Origin: Heterobilharzia americana
Lineage: Eukaryota > Platyhelminthes > Trematoda > Strigeidida > Schistosomatidae
Assembly: GCA_944470555.2 (NCBI GenBank)
Contig: OX104134.1
Location: forward strand, 99,504,701 to 99,568,700
Direction of reading: 5' to 3'
DNA length: 64,000 nt
Each line of letters begins with the position of its first letter. The stretch's first letter is position 1. The translations under genes were made by a program, and so were the position numbers. Below, one piece after another: positions 9,861 through 52,235 of the stretch. Under the pieces are notes generated by a model. It saw nothing but the letters and a program-made list of their open reading frames with translations. It ran no database searches and had not been told where the DNA came from.

Positions 9861-10622
9861 CTAAGTTGAGTACGACTTCAGATACTCCGGGAACCTGACG
9901 GTTCGACCTGATCGTGTTTTCTGTTGTGCCGACGGTTGTTGCAGCTGTGCATTACCAGGCACATCGTCGAGAATTTCGATAATTGAGTCATCCGTCGGTC
10001 GGATGTAGCGAGCTGAAACGTCACTTATAATGGGGTTGCCTTCGAAATAAGCTGGTTTCAAACGGTCGATACTGACAGTATCTTCACGTCCGTCTCGCTC
10101 AATTATGTAGAATTTCTCGTGTCGCTTAATCACTTTGAACGGCCCGTCGTAGGGTGGTTCAAGTGGTCGACGAACGGCGTCGTGGCGAACAAACACGTGT
10201 GATGTCTTTTGTAAACTGGGGTGAACGAAAACATCAGTCGTTTGAGGTCTAATCGGAGAAGGCCTAACTGAACGCATTGCGTTTGTAAGCCTAGTCACGT
10301 AAGATGCCCTGTCGGAAACATGTTTGAAAGTTGAAGGGGAAACAAACTCACCTGGTAGGCGAAGAGTGGTCCCATAGACGAGTTCTGCAGGAGTGCATCC
10401 AGCATCAACTTTCAAGGCGTTACGAATACCTAGTAGGACTAGAGGCAGAGCCTCGGTCCACTGAGGTATGTTTGTAGCTGAAAGAGAAGCTTGTGGATGG
10501 TAGGCTGTCGTTCGGAACCGAGTGCAACCTAAAAGTGCCGTTAGAGCGTGAAATAGTCCACACTCAAATTGGCGCCCACGGTCGGTTGTGACGTAGATGG
10601 ACATCCGAAGTTCGCGATCCAT
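9861..10622 (-). pseudogene. Gypsy integrase core (distal part) and C-terminal region
   Basis: This frame carries the second half of the integrase catalytic core (TTDRGRQFE, the second Asp; then AYHPQA…) and the C-terminal region (PPYDGPFKVI…) found at the end of chromoviral/CsRn1-type pol. It overlaps the preceding pol frame at 10541-10622, so a frameshift separates them. After AYHPQA the sequence jumps straight to SLSATNIPQW. The segment that normally follows, including the third catalytic acidic residue (Glu of D,D-35-E), is missing. This integrase should not be active. The first residue of the open frame is not a real start; the frame is the 3' part of pol. Confidence 0.88.
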
Positions 10623-11797
10623 CTTTCGACGAAAACACGAGCAACTGTTTCGGCAGTAATATCCTTAATAGGTACTGCTTCCGGCCATCGTGTGAAACGA
10701 TCAACACAAGTGAAAAGGTAGGTACATCCATTAGATTCTGGTAGGGGTCCTACAATATCTATATGGACGTGGTCGAAACGCATGTCTGGGGCTAGAAATG
10801 AGCCTAAAGGGCTTTTCGTGTGTCGCGTGACTTTACACTTTTGACAAGCTAAGCACGACTGGGCCCACTCCTTAACGTCTTTGTTCATCCCAGGCCAGCA
10901 GAAACGTTGTGCGATAAGCCTAATGGTGGCTCGTACACCTGGATGAGAGAGTTTGTGCAACGTATTGAAGACGTTGCGTCGACAACTCTTCGGAACTATT
11001 GGGCGTGGTTGACTAGCAGAGACATCGCACAAAATTGTATCCTTGTCTGATCCAACAGGACAAAGTCGCAGTTTGAGAGTTGTGGACGACAACTCATGAT
11101 GCAGCTCAAGGTCTTCCTTTTGACGCCGAGCTAGTTCAACGAGATCAATACCCTCGATATAGTTTATCGAAGCTATTCGAGATAGTGCGTCGGCTGCGGA
11201 GTTGTTTGCTCCAGAAATGTGGCGGATGTCTGACGTGAACTGGGAAATGTAATCCAGCTGTCGCGACTCACGAGGGGAGTATTTGTCAGACGCCGAGCTG
11301 AGGGAAAACGTTAACGGTTTGTGGTCTGTGAAAATAATGAAATCACGACCTTCCACAGAATGTCGAAAATGGCGTACAGAACAGTACATGGCTAGGAGTT
11401 CCCTACCAAATGTACTGTATCTTGTTTCCGCGTCTTGCAGCCGCCTCGAGAAAAAGGCTAACGGTTGCCACTGGTTGTCAGTCAACTGTTGCAAAACTGC
11501 TCCAATTGCTGAATCAGATGCATCAACAGCAATACTCAGAGGAGCATTGGGGTCATGATGCATAAGCATGGTTGCGTTCGAAATGGCTTCCTTGACTTTA
11601 GAGAAAGCAAGTCTAGCCGCGTTGTCCAGAGACACGAACTTCGCAGTTCCTCGAAGTAGATCTGTGAGTGGTCTCATGACAGAGGCACAGTTAGGGATAA
11701 ACCTTCGGTAATAACTTACCAGGCCATTGAAAGTGCGGAGATGTTTCACAGTGGTCGGCTCTGGATAGTTTGTGATAGCCGCCACTTTATCTCTCAA
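10541..11797 (-). pseudogene. Gypsy pol segment: RT thumb, RNase H, integrase N-terminus
   Basis: Order on the minus strand: the RT thumb/tether ([19 protein letters not shown]); RNase H with its acidic residues in [32 protein letters not shown] and NSAADALSR; an integrase zinc-binding domain ([12 protein letters not shown]…CLACQKCK); and the first catalytic Asp of the integrase core ([11 protein letters not shown]). The frame breaks after [11 protein letters not shown] and continues in another frame at 10622. At the other end a frameshift near 11800-11860 separates it from the RT palm. RNase H and zinc-finger residues look conserved, which fits a recent loss of function. Confidence 0.92.
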
Positions 11798-11853
11798 TGG
11801 GCGTATACCTTTGTTGTCAATGGTATGCCCAAGGAAGCTGAGTGATTCAACTC

Positions 11854-12963
11854 CTATTTCACACTTCTGTAAGTTAACTGTGATGCCATGTTTTTTAGTC
11901 TTTCGAATGCGAGGTCCAAATGTTTAAGGTGAGTTTCCTTATCTGGACTCGCAATTAGACAGTCATCGATGTAGACATGAACAAAATTCAAACCACGGAA
12001 GACATCGTCCATAAAGCGTTGGAATGTTTGTGCTGCATTCCGAAGACCAAATGGCATGCGCAGGAATTCAAACAGGCCAAAAGGAGTAATAATGGCTGTT
12101 TTCGCGATATCTTCTGCTGCCATAGGTATCTGGTTGTACGCTTTGACCAAGTCGATTTTGGAGAAAATGTTCATGCCGCATAAGGTTGCGGTCAAGTCGT
12201 AAACGTGAGGTATCGGGTAGCAGTCCGGAGTTGTTTTGGCGTTAAGCCTTCGGTAATCACCGGTTGGACGCCAGTCGTTGCTATCCTTTTTGGGAACCAT
12301 GTGCAATGGCGATGCCCAAGGACTGTTTGACGGTCTGATAATGCCCAGTTCGAGCATGTGGTCGAATTCACTTTTCGCCGTTTTGAGCTTATCGGGGGCT
12401 AAACGGCTCGCTTTGGATGCCACAGGTGGACCTGTGGTTGTGACGTGATGCATAACATTGCTGGTTATGCACGGAAGAGTGTGCTTCGGTTGTCGTAACT
12501 CTGGATATTTCTCCAGAACTGCCTGGTAGGACGCGTCGCCTGATTGTTTAGTCCTAACGATGGCTAAACTCGGACCTACATAGGTGGTGCCGCCAATAGA
12601 TAACTTTGTGTTGTTATCTATCAGTCGTCGACGGCGAGCATCTACGAGTAGATAGTAATGGTTTAGCAAATCTATGCCAATGATGGGCATAGAGACGTCA
12701 GCAAGGAGGAAAATCCAGTGGATAGGTTTGCGTAAACCTAAGTTGAGGTAGGCATACTGTCTCCCGAATGTCGCGATTGCCTCGCAGTTGGCTGCTTGGA
12801 GATTTGAATATGGGTCGGTGTCGATGAGGTAGCGGACTCTCGTTTTAATGTCGGTGACGTAGGGCAAATGGCTGTTTCCGCCGGCTACGGCTGCCGTGAA
12901 AACGTGCCGGCGTGACCGTTTCCCGAGTTTGTGCCCTTGTGAAAACTGCATGGTTTCCGACAT
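11854..12963 (-). pseudogene. Gypsy pol segment: protease and RT fingers/palm
   Basis: This frame begins with the end of the gag-pol junction. A retropepsin-like region follows ([14 protein letters not shown] … [20 protein letters not shown]) and then RT fingers and palm ([75 protein letters not shown]). The RT active-site YIDD is intact. The protease Asp-Thr-Gly triad reads DTD-P, so the Gly is lost and protease activity is doubtful. The frame ends at [13 protein letters not shown] and resumes, shifted, at 11797. In the family gag and pol form long ORFs; here they are fragmented. Confidence 0.92.
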
Positions 12964-12967
12964 TTTC

Positions 12968-13723
12968 TGGCTTAATCCCCGTAAGTATTATGAAACCAGC
13001 ACCATTCAGGGTTTTCCACCCTGCTAGGTTTAGTTTTGGGGCTACCACGAGAGTTGCTGCGATGCGCCAAGGTGCGTTTCTGTGAAGTGCTACGTGAGCT
13101 ACGACTTCGAGATCGTAGCAACTGTTTAACGGAGTTGCACGGTTTGGTCACCTCTGAATCCTGGCGCTCTGGTTTGTCGCAGACAGAATATACTTTGGAG
13201 ACGGGTCTTCTAGAAATCTCCAGTATTTTATCTGCTGAGGCTGCCAGGTCATCGAGTGGAACTGACTGGAGTGTCACCAACACGGTTTGCACTGGTTGTG
13301 GTAGTTTTGAGAGAAATAGCTCTCGGAAAAGGCCATCGTCGAATGTTCGTGCACCGATTACTTCTTGCATGCGTGCGAGGACTTCAGTAGCTGAGTGGCT
13401 GCCTAGCTCGACGTTACGAAGCAATTCGTCTAGACGCTGGCGATCTGTCAGATCGCTTTTCTTCAAGAGTGCGGCCTAAGAAGTGCATAAAGATCACTTA
13501 CTTCAGGATCAAACACGTGTGCTGTAACATACCTGTTTAATTCTCGCGGTAGTGACCGTATGACAGCAAGAAATCGAGAATGAGGATCTGAGACACCCTG
13601 TTCTCAAAAATCTGCCTCGGCATACAGAAACCATGTTTCTGCATTGTCTGGCCAATATGGCACGAGTTGAATCGTGTTCGTAGTCGGCTTAATACGAATA
13701 AGCTTGGGAGTGTGGTCGGACAT
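12968..13723 (-). pseudogene. Gypsy gag (capsid/nucleocapsid), broken
   Basis: A plausible start codon at 13723-13721 opens a gag-like protein. It is interrupted by a stop near 13605 (after YAEADF) and by a one-base frameshift near 13478. The downstream part (13466-12972) contains capsid-like sequence (LDELLRN…FRELFLSKLPQPVQTVLVTL…DDLAASADKILEI), a basic Arg/Ser tract and the beginning of a nucleocapsid finger ([10 protein letters not shown]), where a stop cuts it. The residual finger pattern fits CsRn1-type gag, which has an unusual Cys/His knuckle. Not translatable as one protein. Confidence 0.85.
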
Positions 13724-18179: not shown

Positions 18180-18600
18180 TTTTCTATATCATCTTTTTAA
18201 TGATGACAAAAGTGTCGTCTACATTGTGAATCAGAATTTTTGGTTTTATCACAGGTAGAATGATGGCTTCCAGTGTCTGCATCAATGCTTCAGCAATTAG
18301 TCCGGATATCGGTGATCCCATTTTAGTTCCTTTCATCTGTTTGTATTTCTTGCCGTTGAATTGGAAGTATGTTGTCAGACAAGGATCGATGAGTTCCATC
18401 AGACTTGAACATTTGAGTTTTGTGCCTTGTGAAATGTTTGTGTTTTCATTGAGCAGCAGGAGGGACATCGTTTCCTTGGTCAGTTGAGGTTCGATGGATG
18501 TGTATAGTGCTGTGACATCGGGGGATACCATTAATTCGTCGTGTTCTATGCTAATGTTTTTGATGTTTTCTAAGAATTCCGTTGGTGACTTGATGGAATG
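18180..18600 (-). pseudogene. PLE reverse transcriptase core
   Basis: RT motif A (MVSPDVTALYTSIEP), a region ending in TTYFQFNGKKYKQMKGTKMGSPISGLIAEALMQ (motif B, GSP-S) and motif C written as HNVDDTFVII, where the usual Tyr before Val-Asp-Asp is replaced. The residue order matches PLE RTs (…FDVTALFTS… / …MGSPLS… / YVDD). A stop truncates it beyond KKMI. The catalytic aspartates remain. Confidence 0.85.
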
Positions 18601-18866
18601 TCCGCATGGTTGAACAAGGTGTTTGAGTTTTCTCGAAAGTTCTCTTCATATGTTGTATGTTGGAGTTCCTAGAAGTGAGACAATTGGTCGTAGAAGGATA
18701 TCGGGTTTGTGTAGTCTTGGTCTGGTGTAGAACCGGGGAAGGACAGGTCCATTCGATTTCATCCGCCTGGTGTGTCTTGCTTTGTTATTTCTTCTGCTTC
18801 ACAGAGTTTGTTCAAGGTTTTATTGATCTGGTTGTTGAACTTCTGGACTTTTGGATAGGGTTGGTT

Positions 18867-19235
18867 TCAAGTGGTTGATACACATTTTCGTCTTTGAGTA
18901 ATTTCTCTGCCTTCTCTATATAGTTTTCTTTGTCCATAACTACCGTCGTGTGTGTATCCTTTGTCTGCTGGGAGTACAACGATATCTTTCCTATTTTTCA
19001 GTCTTTTTAATGTTTTCTGTTCTTCAGAGTTCATTTGAGCATGATGTCTCTTCTGACTGTTTAGTAGTGGTACGATGGTTTGTCGTATTTCTTGTTGAGT
19101 GACCTCATTTAATCCTGATGTTTTAAATGACGATTCTAATGTATTAAGGGATTGTGGTGTTGAGGCATGTCTTGTGTTGCAATTCAACCCTTTTTGAAGG
19201 AGAAGTTCTTCCATTTTCGTTAGTGGTTGTTATGA
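18867..19235 (-). pseudogene. PLE N-terminal region
   Basis: MEELLLQKGLNCNTRH…LKRLKNRKDIVVLPADKG is the pre-RT segment that precedes the RT in PLE proteins (the VVLPADKG block is diagnostic). A frame disruption follows the ADKG block. The reading starts shortly after the right inverted repeat. Confidence 0.8.
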
Positions 19236-19494: not shown

Positions 19495-19620
19495 AAGTTT
19501 AGTAATGATGGACAGTGGCTAGCAATAGAATCTAGGATGAGCATTTCGTCCGATTTGGGATTCGTCAGCTGGGTGTACTTGGTTCTCGGTGAGTGATGTT
19601 GTTCCCACTGGGATTCTACA
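19495..19620 (-). mobile_element. Sm-alpha-type SINE fragment with hammerhead motif
   Basis: The minus strand carries the Sm-alpha block: hammerhead, then TTCTATTGCTAGCCACTGTCCATCATTAC. Upstream (19580-19615) is the short AACATCACTCACCGAGAACC-type linker seen in the other copies. The tRNA-like head is missing or replaced by PLE sequence. Confidence 0.8.
19530..19580 (-). ncRNA. Hammerhead ribozyme motif, family A, near-intact core
   Basis: Minus strand: CTGACGA (19568-19562), stem II ATCC/GGAC with loop CAAATC, GAAA (19547-19544), a 3-bp stem III (ATG-CT-CAT) and C17 at 19536; predicted cleavage falls between 19536 and 19535. All invariant core bases are present. Weak points are an A-C mismatch closing stem II and one mismatch in stem I (CCAG/CTAG). 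Sm-alpha hammerheads are known to be active in schistosomes; whether this copy cuts is uncertain. Confidence 0.7.
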
Positions 19621-24000: not shown

Positions 24001-24190
24001 AACTGGCTGTCGTGGCTCGGTGGTGTAGCGGACAACACTGTGGTGTTTGAAGCGATCGCTCCCGAGTCCGGATCGCGGCAGGAACAACATCAGTCGCCGG
24101 GAAGCGGGCACATCCAACTGACAAGTCCCAAATAGGATGCAGTGTGCATCCTGGATTCCACTGCTAGCCACTATCCATCATTACTATACA
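24001..24190 (+). mobile_element. Sm-alpha-type SINE: tRNA-like head and degenerate hammerhead
   Basis: A Pol III A-box-like TGGTGTAGCGG lies at 24020-24030, with a weak B-box-like region near 24070. A hammerhead relic follows at 24112-24170: CTGACAA instead of CTGANGA, intact GTCCCAAATAGGA stem-loop, and GCAG instead of GAAA, then GCATCCTGGATTCCACTGC. The stem I strand TCCTGGATTCCACTGCTAG matches the classic schistosome hammerhead. Core changes predict no self-cleavage. Confidence 0.8.
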
Positions 24191-24618
24191 TTATTATTGT
24201 CATTATGATTATTTTCCTACCTGAAATCCACTATTATCCAAACTCAATTAACCTATTCGCAACCTATTCGATTATGAATATCCATTTCTACGCTTTGTAT
24301 TACCATTTAACCCGTAAAAACTGTTCACTTCTATGTTGTTACACTTAGATCTGTCTCAGTCTACCTTATATATTTATGTGTATTTGTTCTTTCCTGTTGT
24401 TTAACGGTATTTATAATCAAGTATGTAGAGTATCCAGCTGACGAGTACTACTGAAATATATGAATTTATTAAATCCTTTTTTCACATTTTTTGCTTGTTT
24501 TAAATTTGTATCGGGAAACAAATGTTTTCAATTATTTAGTAACTAATACTACGTGAATGTAGGACTAAAGTAATGAACTATATAACGTGAAATAAATGTT
24601 TCTATCAACCTCGCCTGG

Positions 24619-24646
24619 TTAACTAGTTTACTAGTTACTAGCCGGT
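24619..24646 (+). promoter_or_regulatory. 5' leader hairpin of the RTE element
   Basis: The leader holds an inverted repeat, TAACTAGT-TT-ACTAGTTA, that is kept in the copies at 4.26 kb and 20.28 kb (loop TC there). In the 20.3-kb copy the stem extends outward through CTGG/CCAG. Its conservation at the very 5' end suggests an RNA structure, but no function is shown. Confidence 0.5.
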
Positions 24647-24671
24647 CCTAAGCCCGGGTAAAGAGGGAAGG

Positions 24672-27600
24672 TTGGGCATAGGGCTAGCAACCCTACCCCG
24701 TAAAACAAATCTAACCGCTAAAGAAACTTCAAAGCACAAACAAAATATAAAAAATGAAAACAAACTTATTCCCCGCTGGAATCGGAGAGGCGAAATGACG
24801 CCAGTTGGTGAAAGCCTTCGGGAAGCCAATTGGCCGATGTGTCTTCTCTCGATGAAAGCGAAAGTAAACGTGGGGACATGGAATGTCCGCACGATGTTTG
24901 AACCCAGTAAGGCAGCCCAGATTGCAAAGGAGATGAGAAGGTATAACATCGAAGTGCTTGGGATTTGCGAAAGCAGATGGAATGGGAGTGGACTCTCCAA
25001 ACTGTCAACGGGAGAATCAATAATCTACTCCGGTCACCCAGACGCCAACCACGAGCACACTGAGGGAGTGGCTATCATGATGTCCTCAAGAGCATCGAAG
25101 GCTCTCATGCAGTGGGAACCAATCTCCTCCAGGATCATGTCAGCAAGATTCAACTCAAAAGGAAGAAAGGTCACAATCATACAATGTTATGCACCTACAA
25201 ATAATGCAGAGCAAGAGAAAAAGGAGGAATTCTACAGACAACTTCAGTCAACACTGGACAAGACGTCAGTTGGCGATATCAAAATTCTAATGGGCGACAT
25301 GAATGCCAAACTGGGAGGGGACAACACGGGAAGAGAACTAACCATGGGTCGAGAGGCGCTAGGTGAAATGAATGAGAATGGAGAATTGTTTGCAGAATTC
25401 TGTGCATTCAACGATTTGGTGATTGGAGGCAGTGTGTTCAGGCACAAGGATATCCACAAAGCGACATGGATTTCACCAGATGGACACACTAAAAACCAAA
25501 TCGACTTTATCTCAATCTCAAGAAAATGGAGACGCAGTCTACTTAACACAAGGTCAAGAAGAGGAGCAGATGTAGGTTCAGACCACTATCTAGTGCAAGG
25601 AACCTTCGAAATCAAGTTAAAAGCCTTCAAGGAAGCTGGTGATAGACCTCAATTCAAGTACAACACTCGGAAACTGAAGGATGAAACTACAAAGGAGATC
25701 TTCAAAGCAGCCATCAAGACAAAATGGGAGACGTCGAGGGACATCCCTGAAGAAACCTGTGTAGAAGAACACTGGAAGTCTTTGAAAGCTATGTGGAAAG
25801 AAACCTGCACAACAGTATTAGGAAGGAAGAAGGAAGACAAGGAATGGATCTCGACGGATACCTGGAAGCTGATAGAGGAGAGGAGGATGGTGAAGCAGAA
25901 GATAAACCAGTGCAAGGATGCTCAACGACAAGAGGAACTGAGCACAATGTATAAAACACTGGATAAAGAAGTGAAGAAGAGTGCACGCAAAGACAAACGA
26001 CACTTCTACGACACACTGGCAAGTGAAGCAGAACAGGCTGCAGGTAAGAGAGACCTGACGACATTGTATCAAATAACCAGGTTGCTATCAGGGAAGAGAC
26101 CAACACAGATGAAACCAATAAAAGATGAAGAAGGAAATTTAATTACAAAAGAAGAGAAACAGAGGAAACGATGGGCCGACCACTTCAAGAAGCTCTTGAA
26201 TCGACCACCACCTGCACTTCGTCCAGAAATACCACCTGCAGCCGCTGAATTACAAGTGAACATAAATCCCCCAACGAAAATGGAAGTCCTGAACGCCATA
26301 AAGCTACTGAAATGCGGGAAAGCAGCAGGACCAGATGGAATACCGCCAGAAGCACTGAGAACAGATGCAGAGACAACAGCGGACATGCTCACACCACTAT
26401 TGCAGAAGGTGTGGAGGGAAGAGAAGGTACCTGACGATTGGAAGAAGGGTTACCTTGTCAAACTGCCGAAGAAGGGAGACCTCAGTGCTTGCAAGAACTG
26501 GCGAGGAATCACTCTCCTATCCACCCCAAGTAAAATATTAAGCCGCATCATCCTGGAGAGGCTTAAAGACGCACTGGATTCAAAACTGCGACCGGAACAG
26601 GCAGGCTTCAGGAAGTACAAATCATGTGCTGACCAAATTGCAACGCTTCGTATCATCATAGAACAGAGCGTAGAATGGCAATCAGCTCTATACCTCAACT
26701 TCATCGACTTTGAGAAGGCCTTTGACAGCGTCGACCGAGAAGTAATTTGGAAACTGCTTCAATACTACGGAGTACCGCAAACCTTTATCCGCCTCATTCA
26801 ACAACTATATGAAGATGCCACATGCCAAGTAATCCACAATGGGAAGCTCAGTGATGCCTTTGAAGTGAAGACAGGAGTGAAACAAGGTTGCCTACTATCC
26901 CCCATGATATTCCTAATTGTGGTGGACTGGATCATGCAGCAAACAGTAGGCAGCGAGAAGAGGGGGATACACTGGACGACGGAAAAGAACCTAGAAGACT
27001 TGGATTTCGCCGATGACTTATGCCTAATGTCACATAAACTTGAAGATCTGCAGGCAAAAACTAACAAGTTGACAGAGGAGGCAGCTAAGACGGGACTTCA
27101 GGTGAATATAGAGAAGACAGAAGTGATGAAGATACCGCACCACCACCATCAACAACAACAACAAACTCCAATCACCGTCAACGGTAGAAACTTGAAGGAA
27201 GTAACCTCCTTCACTTATCTAGGAAGCACTGTTTCAACTACAGGCGGGACGGACGAGGACGTCAAAGTCAGAATCGGAAAAGCAAGACAGGCATTCATTA
27301 GCCTGAAACCAGTGTGGAGATCTTCTGCACTCAGCATGCGGAACAAGATACGGATTTTCAACACCAACGTCAAGTCAGTGCTCTTGTATGGCTCAGAGAC
27401 TTGGCGCGTCACGAAAGGCATTTCCAATAAACTACAGACATTCATCAACAACTGCTTACGCTCGCTGCTGAAGATCAGATGGCCAGAAAAAATAAGCAAC
27501 AAGGAACTCTGGGAACGAACCAACCAAGAACCTATCACGCAACAAATATGCAGGAAGAAGTGGAGATGGATTGGGCATACACTGAGAAGGCCGACTGAGG

Positions 27601-27803
27601 ACATCACGCGTCAGGCCCTCGAGTGGAATCCCCATGGGAAGCGACGAGTTGGACGTCCGAGGGTGACATGGAGGAGGTCGTGCGAGGAGGAAATGAGAGC
27701 TTCTGGGCTGTCGTGGAACCAGGTTCAAAAGATCTCAGAGAACAGAGGTCACTGGAGGCGTGCTACTGAAGCCCTATGTTCCACTAGGAACCCAAGGGAC
27801 TAA
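24672..27803 (+). CDS. RTE endonuclease/reverse transcriptase (1043 aa)
   Basis: It encodes the machinery for target-primed reverse transcription. Residues 66-310 form an apurinic-type endonuclease: NVGTWNVR (Asn71), ICESRW (Glu100), MGDMN (208-211), NQIDF (Asp278) and GSDH (303-305), so all expected catalytic positions are present. Residues about 580-790 form the RT: LPKKGD, GITLLS, motif A FIDFEKAFDSVDRE (676-690), motif B GVKQGCLLSP (735-744) and motif C FADDLCLM (779-786). A His/Gln run (822-831) varies in length between copies. The C-terminus has a RWIGHTLRR block and ends ATEALCSTRNPRD next to the TAA tail. Such ORFs are often mislabelled as craniofacial development protein 2 in flukes. 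The true start could be this Met or the one at residue 42. Regulation not visible. Confidence 0.95.
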   Translation: MGIGLATLPRKTNLTAKETSKHKQNIKNENKLIPRWNRRGEMTPVGESLREANWPMCLLSMKAKVNVGTWNVRTMFEPSKAAQIAKEMRRYNIEVLGICESRWNGSGLSKLSTGESIIYSGHPDANHEHTEGVAIMMSSRASKALMQWEPISSRIMSARFNSKGRKVTIIQCYAPTNNAEQEKKEEFYRQLQSTLDKTSVGDIKILMGDMNAKLGGDNTGRELTMGREALGEMNENGELFAEFCAFNDLVIGGSVFRHKDIHKATWISPDGHTKNQIDFISISRKWRRSLLNTRSRRGADVGSDHYLVQGTFEIKLKAFKEAGDRPQFKYNTRKLKDETTKEIFKAAIKTKWETSRDIPEETCVEEHWKSLKAMWKETCTTVLGRKKEDKEWISTDTWKLIEERRMVKQKINQCKDAQRQEELSTMYKTLDKEVKKSARKDKRHFYDTLASEAEQAAGKRDLTTLYQITRLLSGKRPTQMKPIKDEEGNLITKEEKQRKRWADHFKKLLNRPPPALRPEIPPAAAELQVNINPPTKMEVLNAIKLLKCGKAAGPDGIPPEALRTDAETTADMLTPLLQKVWREEKVPDDWKKGYLVKLPKKGDLSACKNWRGITLLSTPSKILSRIILERLKDALDSKLRPEQAGFRKYKSCADQIATLRIIIEQSVEWQSALYLNFIDFEKAFDSVDREVIWKLLQYYGVPQTFIRLIQQLYEDATCQVIHNGKLSDAFEVKTGVKQGCLLSPMIFLIVVDWIMQQTVGSEKRGIHWTTEKNLEDLDFADDLCLMSHKLEDLQAKTNKLTEEAAKTGLQVNIEKTEVMKIPHHHHQQQQQTPITVNGRNLKEVTSFTYLGSTVSTTGGTDEDVKVRIGKARQAFISLKPVWRSSALSMRNKIRIFNTNVKSVLLYGSETWRVTKGISNKLQTFINNCLRSLLKIRWPEKISNKELWERTNQEPITQQICRKKWRWIGHTLRRPTEDITRQALEWNPHGKRRVGRPRVTWRRSCEEEMRASGLSWNQVQKISENRGHWRRATEALCSTRNPRD

Positions 27804-27835: not shown

Positions 27836-28363
27836 CTGAATTCTTTTTCACAAAAGTTTCCTTCTCAGTTCATCACAATTAATTGATCAGTCAGTCATGC
27901 AGCAGAAAGGTAACTACCACTGGGAGAAAATATATAGTGATTAGCTCAGTCATGAATAAAATAGACACCTACGTTTCGTCCAACTTGCATATTACCTTAT
28001 AGTAATCATAATAATGATAAATCAACTATTCAAAGTTATTTTCTATTTACAAACTTTATTTCTTCTCTTAAAGATTGTAGCTTTTAATCCTATTTGGTGA
28101 CTACTCTAGTCCAAGTTTTATTTCACTCTACACAGATCGTACCGGATGTCAACTACAGTGTATATTTTAGAAATTCATCCATTAGGAAGGCGATGTTCAA
28201 CTGCTCAGATTGTCAGCTAAACGATAATCACCTGACAACTTTGAAAGATCGGAAATAATTTTTGTTGTATTCAAAAATTGTTACATTTCTTACAATGTCC
28301 AGTGTCACAAAATTCTCATTTTCGTTTCCAACTTCTTAATTTGAGGTTTGTGGGGATTTAGAG
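27836..28363. other. Unrecognised AT-rich sequence
   Basis: Nothing supported; it begins with the RTE target-site flank. Confidence 0.35.
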
Positions 28364-28594
28364 ATTTTTCAAGTTGGTATTCATCGTAGATTGACATCAG
28401 GTGGAGTAACATTGGGAACCTGGGAGCACTGGACAGCTGTTTTGTCCTAGCATGGGACTTCTCAGCAGTGTGAATACACGACCCCGCCAGAGGTCGAACC
28501 CCACACTAGGATGAAACAGCTGTCCAGTGCTCCCAGGTTTTCAATGTTCCTCCAACTGATATTAGTCCACAATGAATACCAACTTTTCAATTTC
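28364..28594. repeat. Foldback of two family-B hammerhead SINE tails
   Basis: The left arm (28364-28450, minus-strand SINE) and right arm (28504-28594, plus-strand SINE) are inverted copies sharing AAGTTGGTATTCAT…, GAACATTG…, CCTGGGAGCACTGGACAGCTG and TCCTAG. The minus-strand unit extends through a tRNA-like B box (GGGGTTCGACCTC near 28490-28502). Its hammerhead reads CTGAGAA and AAAA where CTGANGA and GAAA are required, so it is predicted dead. The right unit is cut before the core. Confidence 0.85.
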
Positions 28595-37510: not shown

Positions 37511-38141
37511 ATGCTTCAATGTTCATTTGACTGGCTGACGACTGAACAAATGCGGCATTCGTTACATACATCCTGTTCCATGTACAAGTTTAAATAAAAA
37601 TGGATTTCGTAGCAGAAATTACATTTCAGTTGGTACTCTTGTTTACTGGCTATTAATAGTCAAAAGCCACTGAACGTTTTTGGACGACATATCAAGTTTG
37701 GATGATAATTTCAGAGTGATTATTTGTCACAGAAGTTAGTAAACAAATAATCATGAGCTTAACATAAAATAACAATAAAATGTATTTGAGTAAACGTAAA
37801 TGAATTACAGTCATAGAAGAAAAAAGAAAAGGTTAAGGCGATCAAAGCGGTTGAGTTTTTCACCAAGATAATTACTGAAGATACTTATCAGTTTATTGTA
37901 GAAGTGAAAAATATAACTGACTTGATCAGGGGTTGTTCACCATAACATATGCCTCAAACATTTTACCCTTAATGTTTCAGGAGAAAAGGTATACTTCTTA
38001 ACATCAAAATATAGTCTGAACAAACTATCCAGTACCAATTTTTGAATGTTTTTACATTCAAGCGAATTCATAAATTAACGCTTTGTCCTGAGATCACTAT
38101 CAATACTCTTCTGCTAGCCTAATCAAAAGAATTCTAGATTC
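37511..38141. other. Unrecognised sequence
   Basis: Nothing supported. Confidence 0.35.
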
Positions 38142-38330
38142 GGACCCAGTGGTTCAAGGGTGACGTGCTGGCCATGGAACCTGGAGGTCGCGGGTTCGAT
38201 CCCTAGTGGGGTCGTGGGTGTACACTGCTAAAGAGTCCCATACTGGGACGAAACAGCTGTCCAGTGCTCCCAGGTCTCCTTTGTTCCTCCAACTGATGTC
38301 AGTGTACGATGAATAACAACTTGAAATATT
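38142..38330 (+). mobile_element. Family-B SINE: tRNA-like head with mutated hammerhead
   Basis: The tRNA-like head begins GGACCCAGTGG. The A box TGGTTCAAGGG and B box GGTTCGATCCC both match consensus, and GACCC/GGGTC can close an acceptor-like stem. The hammerhead follows at 38222-38267: CTAAAGA (G5 changed to A), GTCC/GGGAC, GAAA, ACAGCTGT, C17 at 38261, then CAGTGC. The lost G5 should abolish cleavage. The tail ends GATGAATAACAACTTGAA. Confidence 0.85.
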
Positions 38331-38444
38331 TTCAAATCCGCACAACTCCCTCAAAAAAGAATAAATGCCGAATAACTTGGTGTGTAGAAATGCGCAACAC
38401 ATGTTCGATTTTCCATAGTCGATAGATTTTTTATTGTACTTTAG

Positions 38445-38755: not shown

Positions 38756-38970
38756 CATTGATGGTTACGAGCTATCAGTGGAACCCAGGATAAAAGTTCC
38801 TTCCTACTTGAAACTCTTCGGCTAGATGTACCTACATTCTACTGAATGATGTTGTTCCCAGTAAGACTCTAACTAAAAATCGATCGCTTCATTGAATTGA
38901 CTAGTCCCAAACAGGAAAAACCATGCACCCTGGATTCCACTGCTAACCATTACTCAATTCAGTCCAGTCA
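38756..38970. repeat. Inverted pair of decayed Sm-alpha SINE pieces
   Basis: The left piece (38756-38880) reads on the minus strand: GGTACATCTAGCCGAAGAG…ATCCTGGGTTCCACTGATAGC. The right piece (38895-38965) reads on the plus strand: GACTAGTCCCAAACAGGAAAAACC…CCCTGGATTCCACTGCTAACC. Both hammerhead cores are ruined (CCGAAGA; CTGANGA absent). The opposite orientations make a foldback. Confidence 0.65.
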
Positions 38971-40835: not shown

Positions 40836-41330
40836 TGAGGTCTATGGGGATCTTATTTTTAAGGTAGCATTCATCACAGATTGGTTTTCGTCGGAGAAGC
40901 ATTGGGAACCTGGAAGCACCGGATGGCTGTTTTATTCTAGCATAGGACCCTACCACAGATTGACACCTGCAGCTTCATGTTTCATGGTGGACGCACTAAC
41001 CATTCACCCACTAGACTGGAGTTCAGTAATTCACAGTCTCCTACTCCTTTCAATTCGCAACGCAGTGTTTTTATCCACCAGTCTCCAGTTGGCATCTCCG
41101 TTTACTTTAGACTGGCTGATCCCACACGTCATAACATCCCACTAGAACTTCGGGAAATCCGTCTCCAGGCATGTCACTAATGAACACTTTAAAGTAATGT
41201 GGTTTGCAGTTTATGAGGATGAGTGGGCACCAGTGAGGAGTCCCATGCTAGGATGAAACAGCTATCCAACGCTCCCAGTTTTTCAGTGGTTCTCCAACTT
41301 GTCTCAGTCTGTGATGAATACTATCTTAAT
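40836..41330. repeat. Inverted pair of family-B SINE pieces about 275 bp apart
   Basis: The left piece (40845-40940, minus) contains the rc of TAGAATAAAACAGCCATCC…GGTGCTTCCAGGTTCCC. The right piece (41215-41330, plus) reads CCAGTGAGGAGTCCCATGCTAGGATGAAACAGCTATCCAACGCTCCCAG, with core C3 replaced by G. Both ribozymes are predicted dead. Sequence between them is unrecognised. Confidence 0.7.
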
Positions 41331-42519
41331 TATTTTTTTTGTCTGTAGTCTGCTTGAACTTACTACCTCTCTTAACATTAACTAATGGGTTTCTGTGTGT
41401 TACGATGATAACAATAAAAACAGTAATAACAGCTGTATTCCAAGCAAGACTTGTGATACAGTTTGGAATTCTCAACATGTGACAGTTCAACAAATTAATT
41501 CCCTGTGCAATATCTTTAAGCGAAGTAATCACTGCATTTAAATAGTTTTGATAATGACAGTAATAAAAGCAACAATATGAAACAGGCACCTCATATTGCA
41601 CCAGTATCTGGTTTGGCCACGTGAATGAATAGAGTATCGAGATTAACTTTAGTGGTGGTAGTTTATTCAGCCATGATCAAAATCTGCAGTTCGACATGAT
41701 TATCCAAAGAATAGTAAAATAGTGTATTTCTGTGCATTTATAAGCCCATCCCTTACCGGTGTATCGTTTATTCTTTGTTTTGATGTTAGCTAGAAAAATG
41801 ACAGTTTGAAACCATTTTAAAAGTACACATTAGTACTTAAGGGATGGATTGATGAAATAAATTCAGTGGAAAATCTTCGATAGCCCAAAGTTTAAGCAGG
41901 ACGCCAGATTCAGTCATCCGCAAAACACTTGGTAAATGAATCAAATGTGTAATCAACTTTATTCTCAAAGCATTAGCCTAATATTCAGCCAACTGATATT
42001 CACTAAATTTATCGAACCACACAATGTGTATGTATGTAGCAAAGTGATTCGTATTTTAGGTCCAGATCATTTCCTCATGTATATTTTAATGATAGGCACT
42101 TGATGCTTAGGTTGACCTTGATAGTCATTGCTTCGGAACACTTTGTAAAGGCGATTTTCATCTGACTTCTATAACTGTTGAGAGCTACTATAAATTCTTG
42201 GCATTTGTGAACTGTGCTTGTATACAACTCATCTTGTGAGAAGTTGAGCTGATAATTTTGTTGTTGAAAATTTGATTTTTAGTCAACACCTGGATTTTTG
42301 AGGTTTGATCATGTGTGTTCTACTGATTAAGAATGCTTAGGAATGCAGTTTCGCTATTTTCTTCTTCTGCTTTTATGAATCGAATACTTTCATAGGTTTA
42401 GTTTTTCAATTCACATTTTTGAGCATTACAAAAGAGATGCATAACATGAGAAATGCAAATTTTCAGCTTGATTATTGAAATGACAAGTGATTTCAACCTC
42501 TGCATCCTTACTTCAGCTA
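41331..42519. other. Unrecognised sequence
   Basis: No supported gene; it may contain very old PLE sequence on the minus strand next to the following fragment. Confidence 0.3.
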
Positions 42520-44443: not shown

Positions 44444-44724
44444 AATATAAGAGTAAAACTTGGGCACTGTGGTCGGTTGTAATTCCATTTTAGTCTGTTT
44501 ATTAGAACTATCACACAGTGAGACAGTAGCATTTACTGGATAACGTTTCGGACACAATTTACTGTCTTCATTCATATCAGATAACTCCTTATATGAATAT
44601 GGACAATAAACTGTGTCCGAAACGTTATCCAGTAAATGCTATTGTCTCACTATGTCATATTTCTAATAAATAGACTTAAATGGAATTACAATCTACCACA
44701 GTGCCCAAGTTTTACACTTATATT
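44444..44724. repeat. 280-bp near-perfect palindrome of PLE terminal repeats
   Basis: Arms 44444-44578 and 44591-44724 are inverted copies (TATAAGAGTAAAACTTGGGCACTGTGG… / …CCACAGTGCCCAAGTTTTACACTTATA) around a spacer of about 12 bases. The arms contain TTTACTGGATAACGTTTCGG, found also at 39.7, 55.98 and 56.67 kb. It lies directly downstream of the PLE GIY-YIG frame. Confidence 0.9.
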
Positions 44725-45103
44725 AATGAGTTTTTCTCTAGATTTCTTATCTTATTAAGATATACTAATCTTGATTTAGCTAAGTTTTTGTGCTTTGTTA
44801 TTCTAATCGACCCTGGTCGACTGCTTTGACCTATGTAGTTGACCTCGCAATCATTACAAGGGATCTGGTAGACCAGATTATTTTGCTCAATCGCATCGAT
44901 AGGATCTTTTAACCTACAGAGCTTGTTTCTAAGTGGGTGTGTTGGTTTGAATGCCACTTTAATCTCAGCCTTATTGAGAATTCTTCGTAGTGCTTCTGAG
45001 GTGTCTTCCTTGTATGGTAACATAGCAGAGGCTTTGAATTCTCTCTTAGTCCTGTCACCATTATTACCACTAGTAGTGGGATTATCATTAATAACACCTG
45101 TAT

Positions 45104-45139
<36 letters not shown>

Positions 45140-45149
45140 CACTGCTCAT
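44718..45149 (-). pseudogene. PLE GIY-YIG endonuclease fragment
   Basis: An N-terminal Ser run comes from an (ACT)n microsatellite at 45103-45138. It is followed by KASAMLPYKEDTSEALRRILNKAEIKVAFKPTHPLRNKLCRLKDPIDAIEQNNLVYQIPCNDCEVNYIGQSSR: the linker and start of a PLE GIY-YIG domain (VYQIPC-DC…YIGQ). After KHKNLAKS it diverges into the palindrome sequence, so the nuclease lacks its catalytic C-terminal half. The Met start is internal. Confidence 0.85.
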
Positions 45150-45169
45150 ATTTTCTTTCTATTTCTTAT

Positions 45170-50660: not shown

Positions 50661-52042
50661 TTATAAACTTTCATCCAGCTTACAGAGAAGTTACAACAGA
50701 AGAGTGAAGAATAGTGTTCATTTTTCCTGGTAACTGTTCTTTTAGTCATCATGAGTATATTAAGTAAAGAACACGGGAGAAATGTGAATTATTGAATCAA
50801 CAAAGATTCAGAATGACAAACAATCAACATCAGTTAATATTGCTCAACGATTAAGGTATGACCGTCTACAAATCAAAATTGTAATTGGATGCAGTAAGCT
50901 TACAGTATATGACTCATTCAAGTAACAAGATTTCTCAGCTTATCCAAACTTATTCTCTCTAAAGTTTTTTTGTCTATGCCTAGATTGCTCAATGAAAAAT
51001 GTTTACATTTTAGAACGATAGTCGATTCTTTTTTTATCGGAATCCTATTTATCATGAAACGTTGGGGCTACTGAGTGAAGTTGAAGCGATATTTGAAGCA
51101 AATGTTGAGTTCCTCTGACATCTTCAGAGCTACATCAGCAGACACTCCACTGGCTCCATGAAGTCCTTAACTGTTAGTCTGAGCTGTGTGAGGAAATGTA
51201 GATTTTGCTATTGGAATCCATGCGATAACCGAAGTCAGTGATCAAAGACCCTAGGTGATATCATTGGTGGGTATACATTCATACACCATCCTCATTCTAA
51301 TCACCATATCGCATTTCGTTATTTGCTACAGCCATTCTCCTCTTCTTATGACTTTCTTCGACTTCTGACAACACTTTTATACGATTTCTTCATCTCATTG
51401 ATATGAAGTACAGCAAGCTGAACCGTTACGCAATAATGCAAGATCTCAAGTTCACTGATGAATGGACTATATCGTAAATCAGACATACCTCACAGAACTC
51501 AACCTAAAAAACGCTACTTTCCACGCCATCCTTTTACATAAAGCTGAATTGTAATATTTACTTTACTTTATGTCTTAATTGTTGGGAAAATATTATATAT
51601 TCCCTAGAATATATTTGATTTTAACATAGTGAAGAATGCTTGTACTTGAATAGGAGGATTCTGGTAGTGGTACATTACCTGAGCTAGACGGTACAATCGT
51701 GAAGCCGTCAGTATCAGCTTAGATAATATCACCAATACAAATGTTGCAAAGAAGTTGGCTTCAAGATGTGTTTTGTTTTCAATTAAATTTGAGATGACTT
51801 TGAGGTGTAGTATGAAGAACACTATAATTGTCATCCTACCTGATGAGAATAAACTCATAAAGATTTAGTTTGATTGCCAAAAATACCTATTAGGATATTA
51901 GAGAAAACTAGAAATATTCAGCAAAGAAATGAATATGAATATTAAGAGAAAGATATAAGTTGACGTTTCCAGCTGTTTAATATGTTGAAAGTAGCAATTA
52001 TCGTGAGCTAACAGAAGTTGGAAATATGGAGCATTGGATTCT
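50661..52042. other. Mostly unrecognised; second 3' UTR copy at 51180-51450
   Basis: Apart from the 51180-51450 similarity to 50340-50660 nothing is supported. Confidence 0.35.
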
Positions 52043-52235
52043 GACCCAGTGGCTCAATGGTAACGCGCTGGCCGTGGAAGCTGAAGGTCATGGGTTCGAT
52101 CCCTGCTGGTGGGGTCGTCGGTGCGCACTGCTGAGGAGTCCCATACTAGGACGAAACAGCTGTCCAGTGCTCCCAGGTTTCCTTTGTTCCTCCAACTGAT
52201 GTCAGTCTACGATGAATAACAACTTGAAAAAATTA
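52043..52235 (+). mobile_element. Family-B SINE with intact Pol III boxes and hammerhead
   Basis: The tRNA-like head begins GACCCAGTGG. The A box TGGCTCAATGG (52050-52060) and B box GGTTCGATCCC (52093-52103) match the Pol III consensus perfectly, and GACCC pairs with GGGTC to close the head. The hammerhead follows at once, then CTCCCAGGTTTCC…CAACTGATGTCAG…GATGAATAACAACTTGAAAAAATT. Relatives are at 28.4, 38.1 and 40.9-41.3 kb; this is the only one with every key position conserved. No TSD recognised. Confidence 0.88.
52125..52170 (+). ncRNA. Hammerhead ribozyme, all core positions conserved
   Basis: Stem I is GCACTG (52125-52130) with CAGTGC (52165-52170), 6 bp. Core CTGAGGA is at 52131-52137 (fits CUGANGA). 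Stem II is GTCC/GGAC with loop CATACTA. GAAA is at 52153-52156. Stem III ACAG/CTGT is self-complementary with no spare loop, or 2 bp with an AGCU loop. C17 is at 52164; cleavage is expected between 52164 and 52165. Tiny stem III is typical of retroposon hammerheads, which often need dimers or stem I contacts to work. Confidence 0.85.

Follow-up and report, generated by a model that had tools for sequence, protein, structure and literature searches.

What kind of element is the short repeat at positions 52043 to 52235 (+) of this window, a stretch of 64,000 bases of Heterobilharzia americana DNA on contig C8, and which enzyme copies it? The first-pass annotation had described these 193 bases as a stand-alone SINE with perfect Pol III boxes and a fully equipped hammerhead ribozyme, belonging to a second hammerhead-SINE family beside the Sm-alpha SINEs of schistosomes.

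We found that the Rfam type I model (RF00163, Hammerhead_1) matches positions 52125-52170 (+) from end to end at 47.8 bits, compared to a gathering threshold of 34, with the conserved core CUGANGA...GAAA, three stems, an open stem I and zero non-standard pairs in the alignment, which confirms the full-core, three-stem ribozyme originally read there. Stem I pairs GCACTG with CAGTGC, stem II pairs GTCC with GGAC around the loop CATACTA, and stem III reads AC(AGCT)GT and is self-complementary (ACAGCTGT), as had been noted; cleavage is predicted at 52164|52165. The pattern CTGANGAGTCC-N7-GGACGAAAC occurs once exactly in the window and three times with one or two mismatches, versus 0.00 occurrences expected from 100 shuffles, and Rfam reports three above-threshold hammerheads in the window, the other two lying at 19530-19574 (-) (48.2 bits) and 24112-24156 (41.4 bits). 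A scan of IMG/VR with the stem-II/loop-II motif returned 0 matches.

Folding predictions bear on how the ribozyme might act. The whole of 52043-52235 is no more stable than its shuffles (z 0.02), and the best energy-model fold of the isolated 46-base motif is a competing hairpin (-14.5 kcal/mol) and not the hammerhead (-8.6 kcal/mol), so the activity of the monomer is uncertain. Because the model prefers this competing hairpin for the isolated monomer, cleavage as a dimer gains favor and is plausible. At position 52119 (+) the window copy has C where the 17 other plus-strand loci of the alignment have G, a change that weakens a possible outer stem I (TGGG/CCCA, our own reading).

Upstream of the ribozyme lies a tRNA-like head. 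Its A box, TGGCTCAATGG at 52050-52060 (+), fits TRGYNNANNGG in a pattern search, and the pattern is conserved in 35 of the 37 copies of at least 95% identity that span the box. The description of both boxes as perfect holds for the A box but not for the B box, GGTTCGATCCC at 52093-52103 (+), which is one base from the strict consensus GGTTCGANTCC and matches the looser form only; the identical 11-mer is present in 30 of 37 spanning copies of at least 95% identity. The annotated tRNA-like closing stem is present in the sequence, GACCC at 52043-52047 (+) pairing with GGGTC at 52112-52116 (+). The head carries the internal A and B boxes of a tRNA-derived SINE, and the sense strand of the repeat unit defined below has zero TTTT runs. 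ARAGORN called no tRNA; read by eye, the putative anticodon loop is CGG/TGG, which suggests a proline-like head.

We then determined the extent and abundance of the repeat. A search of the genome (664.9 Mb, 337 contigs) with the window repeat gave 1819 first-look candidates, and the best 40, which were scored, comprise the window copy and 39 others that are 95-97% identical over almost all of the query; five shorter matches are also among those listed. The hammerhead-bearing family is multicopy and young. Among the 40 youngest copies spanning the hammerhead, which were chosen by likeness to the window copy, 30 have an intact core with all 12 pairs formed, showing that compensated stems are not peculiar to this copy; Pol III boxes and hammerhead are retained in young copies and decayed in old ones. 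Alignment of the best 30 of the 40 scored loci (L001-L030, a set biased toward young, window-like copies) revealed a repeat unit of 402 bp, made up of the core and a 171-bp stretch, both of which recur at a 402-bp period. This stretch is absent from the window copy, and 20 of the 30 loci have a young arm with at least 40 of its bases. Blastn against the 30 loci and the unit limits the window copy to 231 bp at 51999-52229 (+), a single-arm insertion covering unit phase 1-231; positions 52230-52235 (+) hold the remainder of an A-run (52230-52232) and the first flanking bases. In 24 of the 29 other loci, homology reaches 51999 or farther in at least one arm, and the remaining five begin at 52004, 52008, 52025, 52038 and 52047. 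This upstream homology, together with the 402-bp period, leads us to reject 52043-52235 as a whole element.

Nor are the copies stand-alone SINEs, as had been proposed: they are permuted or tandem pieces of the 402-bp unit, often joined as head-to-head inverted pairs. Locus L025 contains 2.25 units head to tail and L010 has one arm of 2.16 units, so that, as in retrozymes, a type I hammerhead recurs in tandem units, here in arms of up to 2.25 units. The unit has stops in all three forward frames, which encode no reverse transcriptase and GIY-YIG region. Older relatives lie elsewhere in the window: a head-to-head inverted pair at 28340-28585 (28340-28501 minus, 28500-28585 plus), a copy of phase 39-261 at 38137-38356 (+) with the broken hammerhead core CTAAAGA, an old fragment at 41220-41335 (+) with the broken core GTGAGGA, and a very old, weak fragment (58.7%) at 40857-41197 (-). 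Twenty systematic 10-kb stretches (200 kb) from contigs C1-C4 contained 22 segments totaling 4,005 bases, or 2.0% of this sample, which scales, as a rough figure, to about 73,000 segments genome-wide. Rfam found 15 hammerheads, both families together, in 150 kb of the sample.

The evidence on the copying enzyme comes mainly from the ends of the insertions. Among 50 young 3' ends (matches of at least 94% identity and at least 40 bases, window excluded), 30 fall at phase 225-240, 25 of them exactly at 231, 16 fall at 255-275 and four fall elsewhere, defining two end zones: zone A at phase 231, where the window copy ends, and zone B at about 254-271. The copy at 38137-38356 ends in zone B, and the arms of the pair at 28340-28585 end in zones B and A. 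We took a census of insertions at a minimum of 88% identity and uncut by the end of the locus, which left 36 of 64 insertions; the window and L001 are one locus, giving 35 distinct. These 36 young insertions comprise 22 head-to-head two-arm insertions and 14 single ones (13 distinct). In 21 of the 22 young pairs there is one arm per zone, in none do both arms end in the same zone, and one is broken. When all 64 insertions are considered, old ones included, 31 are head-to-head, with one arm per zone in 27, both arms in zone A in one, and an unclear end in three. Adjacent segments at most 20 bp apart show the same preference, with 31 of 33 pairs head-to-head, two direct and none tail-to-tail. 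Target duplications of at least 12 bp (allowing at most one mismatch) flank 18 of the 36 young insertions, compared to 1.0% of 1260 mismatched flank pairs, and in 11 of the 36 the duplication is absent or at most 8 bp. The window copy has no convincing target duplication, only a 6-bp AAGTAG that does not abut the ends.

These ends allow us to weigh an ordinary explanation, in which a tRNA-derived SINE is moved by a LINE, such as the RTE element whose stop-free frame of 1053 amino acids occupies 24642-27803 (+) of the window, and the inverted copies arise by LINE twin-priming. A head bearing A and B boxes is what such a SINE would have, and A-rich 3' junctions with target duplications of at least 10 bp also fit LINE priming. 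Upstream ends are scattered round the unit circle, with one exception: phase 401-6 is the starting point of 7 of the 14 single insertions (6 of the 13 distinct ones), compared to 2 of 44 head-to-head arms, in a set of loci all pre-selected to span phase 45-237; this suits the defined transcript start of a LINE-moved SINE. In twin-priming by a LINE, however, the second cDNA starts internally at variable places, whereas the two arms of a young pair almost always end in different zones, both of them narrow. Arms also exceed one unit and run upstream of the tRNA-like head, and the 3' end of the window RTE copy is not alike in a reading by eye. We consider the LINE explanation improbable, with twin-priming disfavored above all by the paired end zones.

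A closer parallel is offered by Penelope elements. In a lizard Penelope, PMC11167929 describes reverse transcription that starts at two adjacent internal sites, located in an AC-rich stem-loop downstream of the hammerhead. These sites account for the 30-40-bp 'tail' carried by some genomic copies, and in vitro their use does not differ between strands. For rotifer Penelopes, PMC3846280 reports two inverted pLTRs of which one carries a 31-bp tail, overlapping inverted copies, partial tandems and, in some insertions, target duplications of 8-10 bp. Copies of the 402-bp unit resemble this Penelope/Poseidon type in having two putative reverse-transcription start sites some 30 nt apart with the tail on one head-to-head arm, and they share with Penelope elements inverted insertions flanked as a whole by short target duplications, partial tandems, and a hammerhead upstream of the start sites. 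Between the two end zones they too have an AC-rich stretch, CCAAATCTCCACAACCCCCTCAAAA, although no stable stem-loop is predicted at the start zones, unlike the stem-loop of the lizard element. They further differ from the lizard Penelope in vitro in that each arm has its own zone, and from Penelope elements generally in having a tRNA-like promoter and no long coding frame. Read from sequence, the insertion ends point to a Penelope-like helper.

Spread without an RNA step, as satellite-like DNA multiplied by recombination or as a fold-back DNA transposon, might be suspected from one unit occurring in both tandem and inverted repeats. Against this, 5' ends are variable, the 3' ends fall into two zones with A-rich sequence beyond them, the length of the target duplications varies, and copies lie on many contigs. 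This pattern of ends disfavors such a process, and we give it almost no chance of being correct.

We then examined what the arms reveal about the RNA template. Of the 58 arms of young insertions, 11 are longer than one unit and 24 reach past phase 390 on the upstream side, so a tandem, read-through or circular RNA is needed as template. The cleavage site is crossed by 53 of 58 arms, indicating that the template RNA was uncut or re-ligated. Where an arm wraps around the unit, successive passes can be compared: those of L010 are identical at 264/264 and 200/201 positions and those of L025 at 269/269 and 233/234, whereas passes diverge in L030 (169/183) and, over short overlaps, in L016 (37/43) and L029 (36/42). 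For the 48 arms of at least 92% identity, pooled identity was 97.99% between passes within an arm, 97.76% between the two arms of an insertion and 96.15% between loci. The near-identical passes of L010 and L025 suit a circular template or a tandem of very recent origin, while the divergent passes would fit tandem or nested templates better.

These observations also bear on a variant in which a Penelope enzyme mobilizes the unit from a linear read-through or tandem template, the hammerhead is a passenger inherited from the terminal repeat of a Penelope, and circles have no role. The many arms that cross the cleavage site suit this variant, as do the two L030 passes, with their 14 differences in 183 positions, and lizard Penelope hammerhead mutants insert normally (PMC11167929). 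The long, near-identical wrap-around passes of L010 and L025 speak against it, as do the intact hammerheads of most of the youngest copies, themselves selected for likeness to an intact copy. We regard a linear template with an idle hammerhead as a real possibility, if a somewhat doubtful one.

The account that we favor, and consider likely, is that the family is a non-autonomous element with a tRNA-like promoter and a hammerhead, and that a Penelope-like enzyme copies it. The working unit of this short retroelement would be a 402-nt RNA. In each unit a tRNA-like Pol III promoter is followed by a type I hammerhead, which begins 21 bases past the B box, and by two zones, 65 and about 90-105 nt past the cleavage site, in which reverse transcription would start. 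The unit would be transcribed by Pol III, and a Penelope-like protein, presumably combining a reverse transcriptase with a GIY-YIG endonuclease, would cut both target strands and prime one cDNA from each zone. Each cDNA would be of variable length, at times beyond a whole unit, and the joining of two cDNAs head to head would leave a short target duplication. The hammerhead would cut tandem transcripts into 402-nt monomers, and ligation of these monomers into circles may supply the template.

Candidates for the helper are present in the genome, where a reverse transcriptase that we read from its motifs as Penelope-type is abundant, with 7664 first-look candidates; four among the 150 scored have stop-free frames of more than 500 amino acids. 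The window itself contains two minus-strand remnants, at 18184-18645 and 44718-45158, which we take to be of Penelope type from their motifs. Pfam matched RVT_1 alone, below its cut-off, in the first of these fragments, and gave no match for the second or for the GIY-YIG fragment. The best reverse-transcriptase structures in a structure-bank search with the first fragment were telomerase (E 0.7), and its protein relatives are either unnamed proteins or reverse transcriptases, for the most part from flatworms where named. A Sm-alpha-like hammerhead, the match at 19530-19574 (-), lies about 300 bp upstream of the Penelope-type frame fragment at 18184-19229 (-); it may be part of the terminal repeat of a Penelope or of a truncated Sm-alpha copy alongside. 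A weak alignment to one arm of a local Penelope (equaled by 3 of 500 shuffles) and to an L031 arm (7 of 500) had no counterpart in the other arm of that local Penelope (55 of 500) or in L026 (429 of 500). A profile of the module from hammerhead to tail picked up none of the terminal regions of Penelope elements that were examined, so the partner suggested by the weak alignment is unsupported by the profile search, and no matching partner family was found.

Several other features were recorded in the window and the sampled DNA. A twister-P1 match at 24602-24675 (+), at 50.3 bits below the gathering threshold of 67.2, sits on the 5' edge of the RTE LINE, whose homology begins at the equivalent of 24603-24608 in six of seven other copies and at 24592 in one; twister motifs at RTE 5' ends are already mentioned in PMC7761336. 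A SECIS_1-like hairpin at 24785-24850 (+), within the 5' part of the same LINE, scores 34.2 bits versus a gathering threshold of 35 and is probably a chance match or a LINE hairpin. The remnant of a Ty3/gypsy-type LTR retroelement at 10541-11923 (-) has RNase H, integrase zinc-binding and integrase core domains in Pfam, with neighboring open frames at 9861-13475. At C2:50000001-50010000 (L041), five U6atac matches of 50.3 bits each, about 2 kb apart, mark a tandem array that contains a U6atac-like sequence.

We next compared the family with the schistosome SINEs. The proposal of a second hammerhead-SINE family, distinct from the Sm-alpha type, stands: within the window, a copy of the 402-bp unit and a Sm-alpha-type copy show no blastn cross-match at E 0.01, and the families differ in stems I and III and in loop II, with the pairs compensated. 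A profile search links the two weakly, over the hammerhead alone (e.g., E 0.006), and membership in Sm-alpha was rejected for lack of homology across the element at the same blastn threshold. To compare the stems, we aligned ten hammerheads, five of each family (four from the window, three from the 200-kb sample and three from young loci or their flanks), a set in which two related families amount to few independent covariation events. The stems were paired in 94.2% of 120 cells, compared to 80.8% in shuffles and 20.8-40.0% when slid, and the covariation score was 0.544 compared to 0.317 in shuffles; both values exceed all 500 shuffles and all slides. Two-sided changes occurred in 22 cells versus 10.7 in shuffles, whereas neither the count of pairs that show such a change (5 versus 4.9) nor that of further pair types (12 versus 14.1) was raised. 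The stems therefore covary with the Sm-alpha-type hammerheads of this genome, though not on every measure. Some Sm-alpha-type copies also occur as abutting head-to-head inverted pairs, at 38759-38952 in the window, 192-359 in L027 and 146-378 in L031.

Like Sm-alpha and Sj-alpha, the 402-bp-unit family is short and very abundant, with a tRNA-like head and a type I hammerhead. That schistosome SINEs carry hammerheads is well established: PMC2770079 reports about 38,500 hammerhead candidates by homology in S. mansoni, tRNA-Gln-TTG-type SINEs that resemble Sm-alpha in that species and, for S. japonicum, some 650 pseudogenes of the tRNA-Pro-CGG type. The CGG/TGG reading of the putative anticodon loop sets our family apart from the Gln-TTG SINEs; if the head is proline-like, the S. 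japonicum tRNA-Pro-CGG set may be the same family. The family could also be a relative of Sj-alpha, as its distinctness was established by comparison with the Sm-alpha type.

The remaining comparison is with retrozymes. Repeats with a tRNA in S. mansoni were already presented as putative retrozyme RNAs in 2016 (PMC4918200). A 2020 review (PMC7761336) describes retrozymes as seemingly devoid of promoters or of any motif betraying a helper, and names Penelope/Terminon elements as likely helpers on the basis of shared hammerheads and co-occurrence. The idea of a Penelope helper is thus already in print; we found no insertion-end evidence in either of these two papers. Neither such evidence nor a Pol III-boxed retrozyme was found in the literature searched, most of it outside subscription journals. 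Extending our reading to both the 402-bp-unit and Sm-alpha types, we suggest tentatively, with somewhat less than even confidence, that schistosomatid hammerhead SINEs are small, Pol III-promoted and probably circular RNAs that parasitize Penelope-like elements and not LINEs. If this is true, retrozymes gain a promoter, their suspected Penelope helper becomes a demonstrated one, and a SINE can be driven by a helper other than a LINE. The mechanism of Penelope insertion is only now emerging (PMC11167929), and a family that makes up about 2% of the sampled genome offers many natural insertion products on which questions of both the retrozyme helper and Penelope insertion can be tested. Like the metazoan non-LTR retrozymes of Cervera and de la Pena, the family consists of short tandem units (150-450 bp in those elements) with a type I hammerhead whose stem III has two pairs and a tetraloop; unlike retrozymes as described in PMC7761336, its 402-bp unit combines Pol III boxes with Penelope-like insertion ends.
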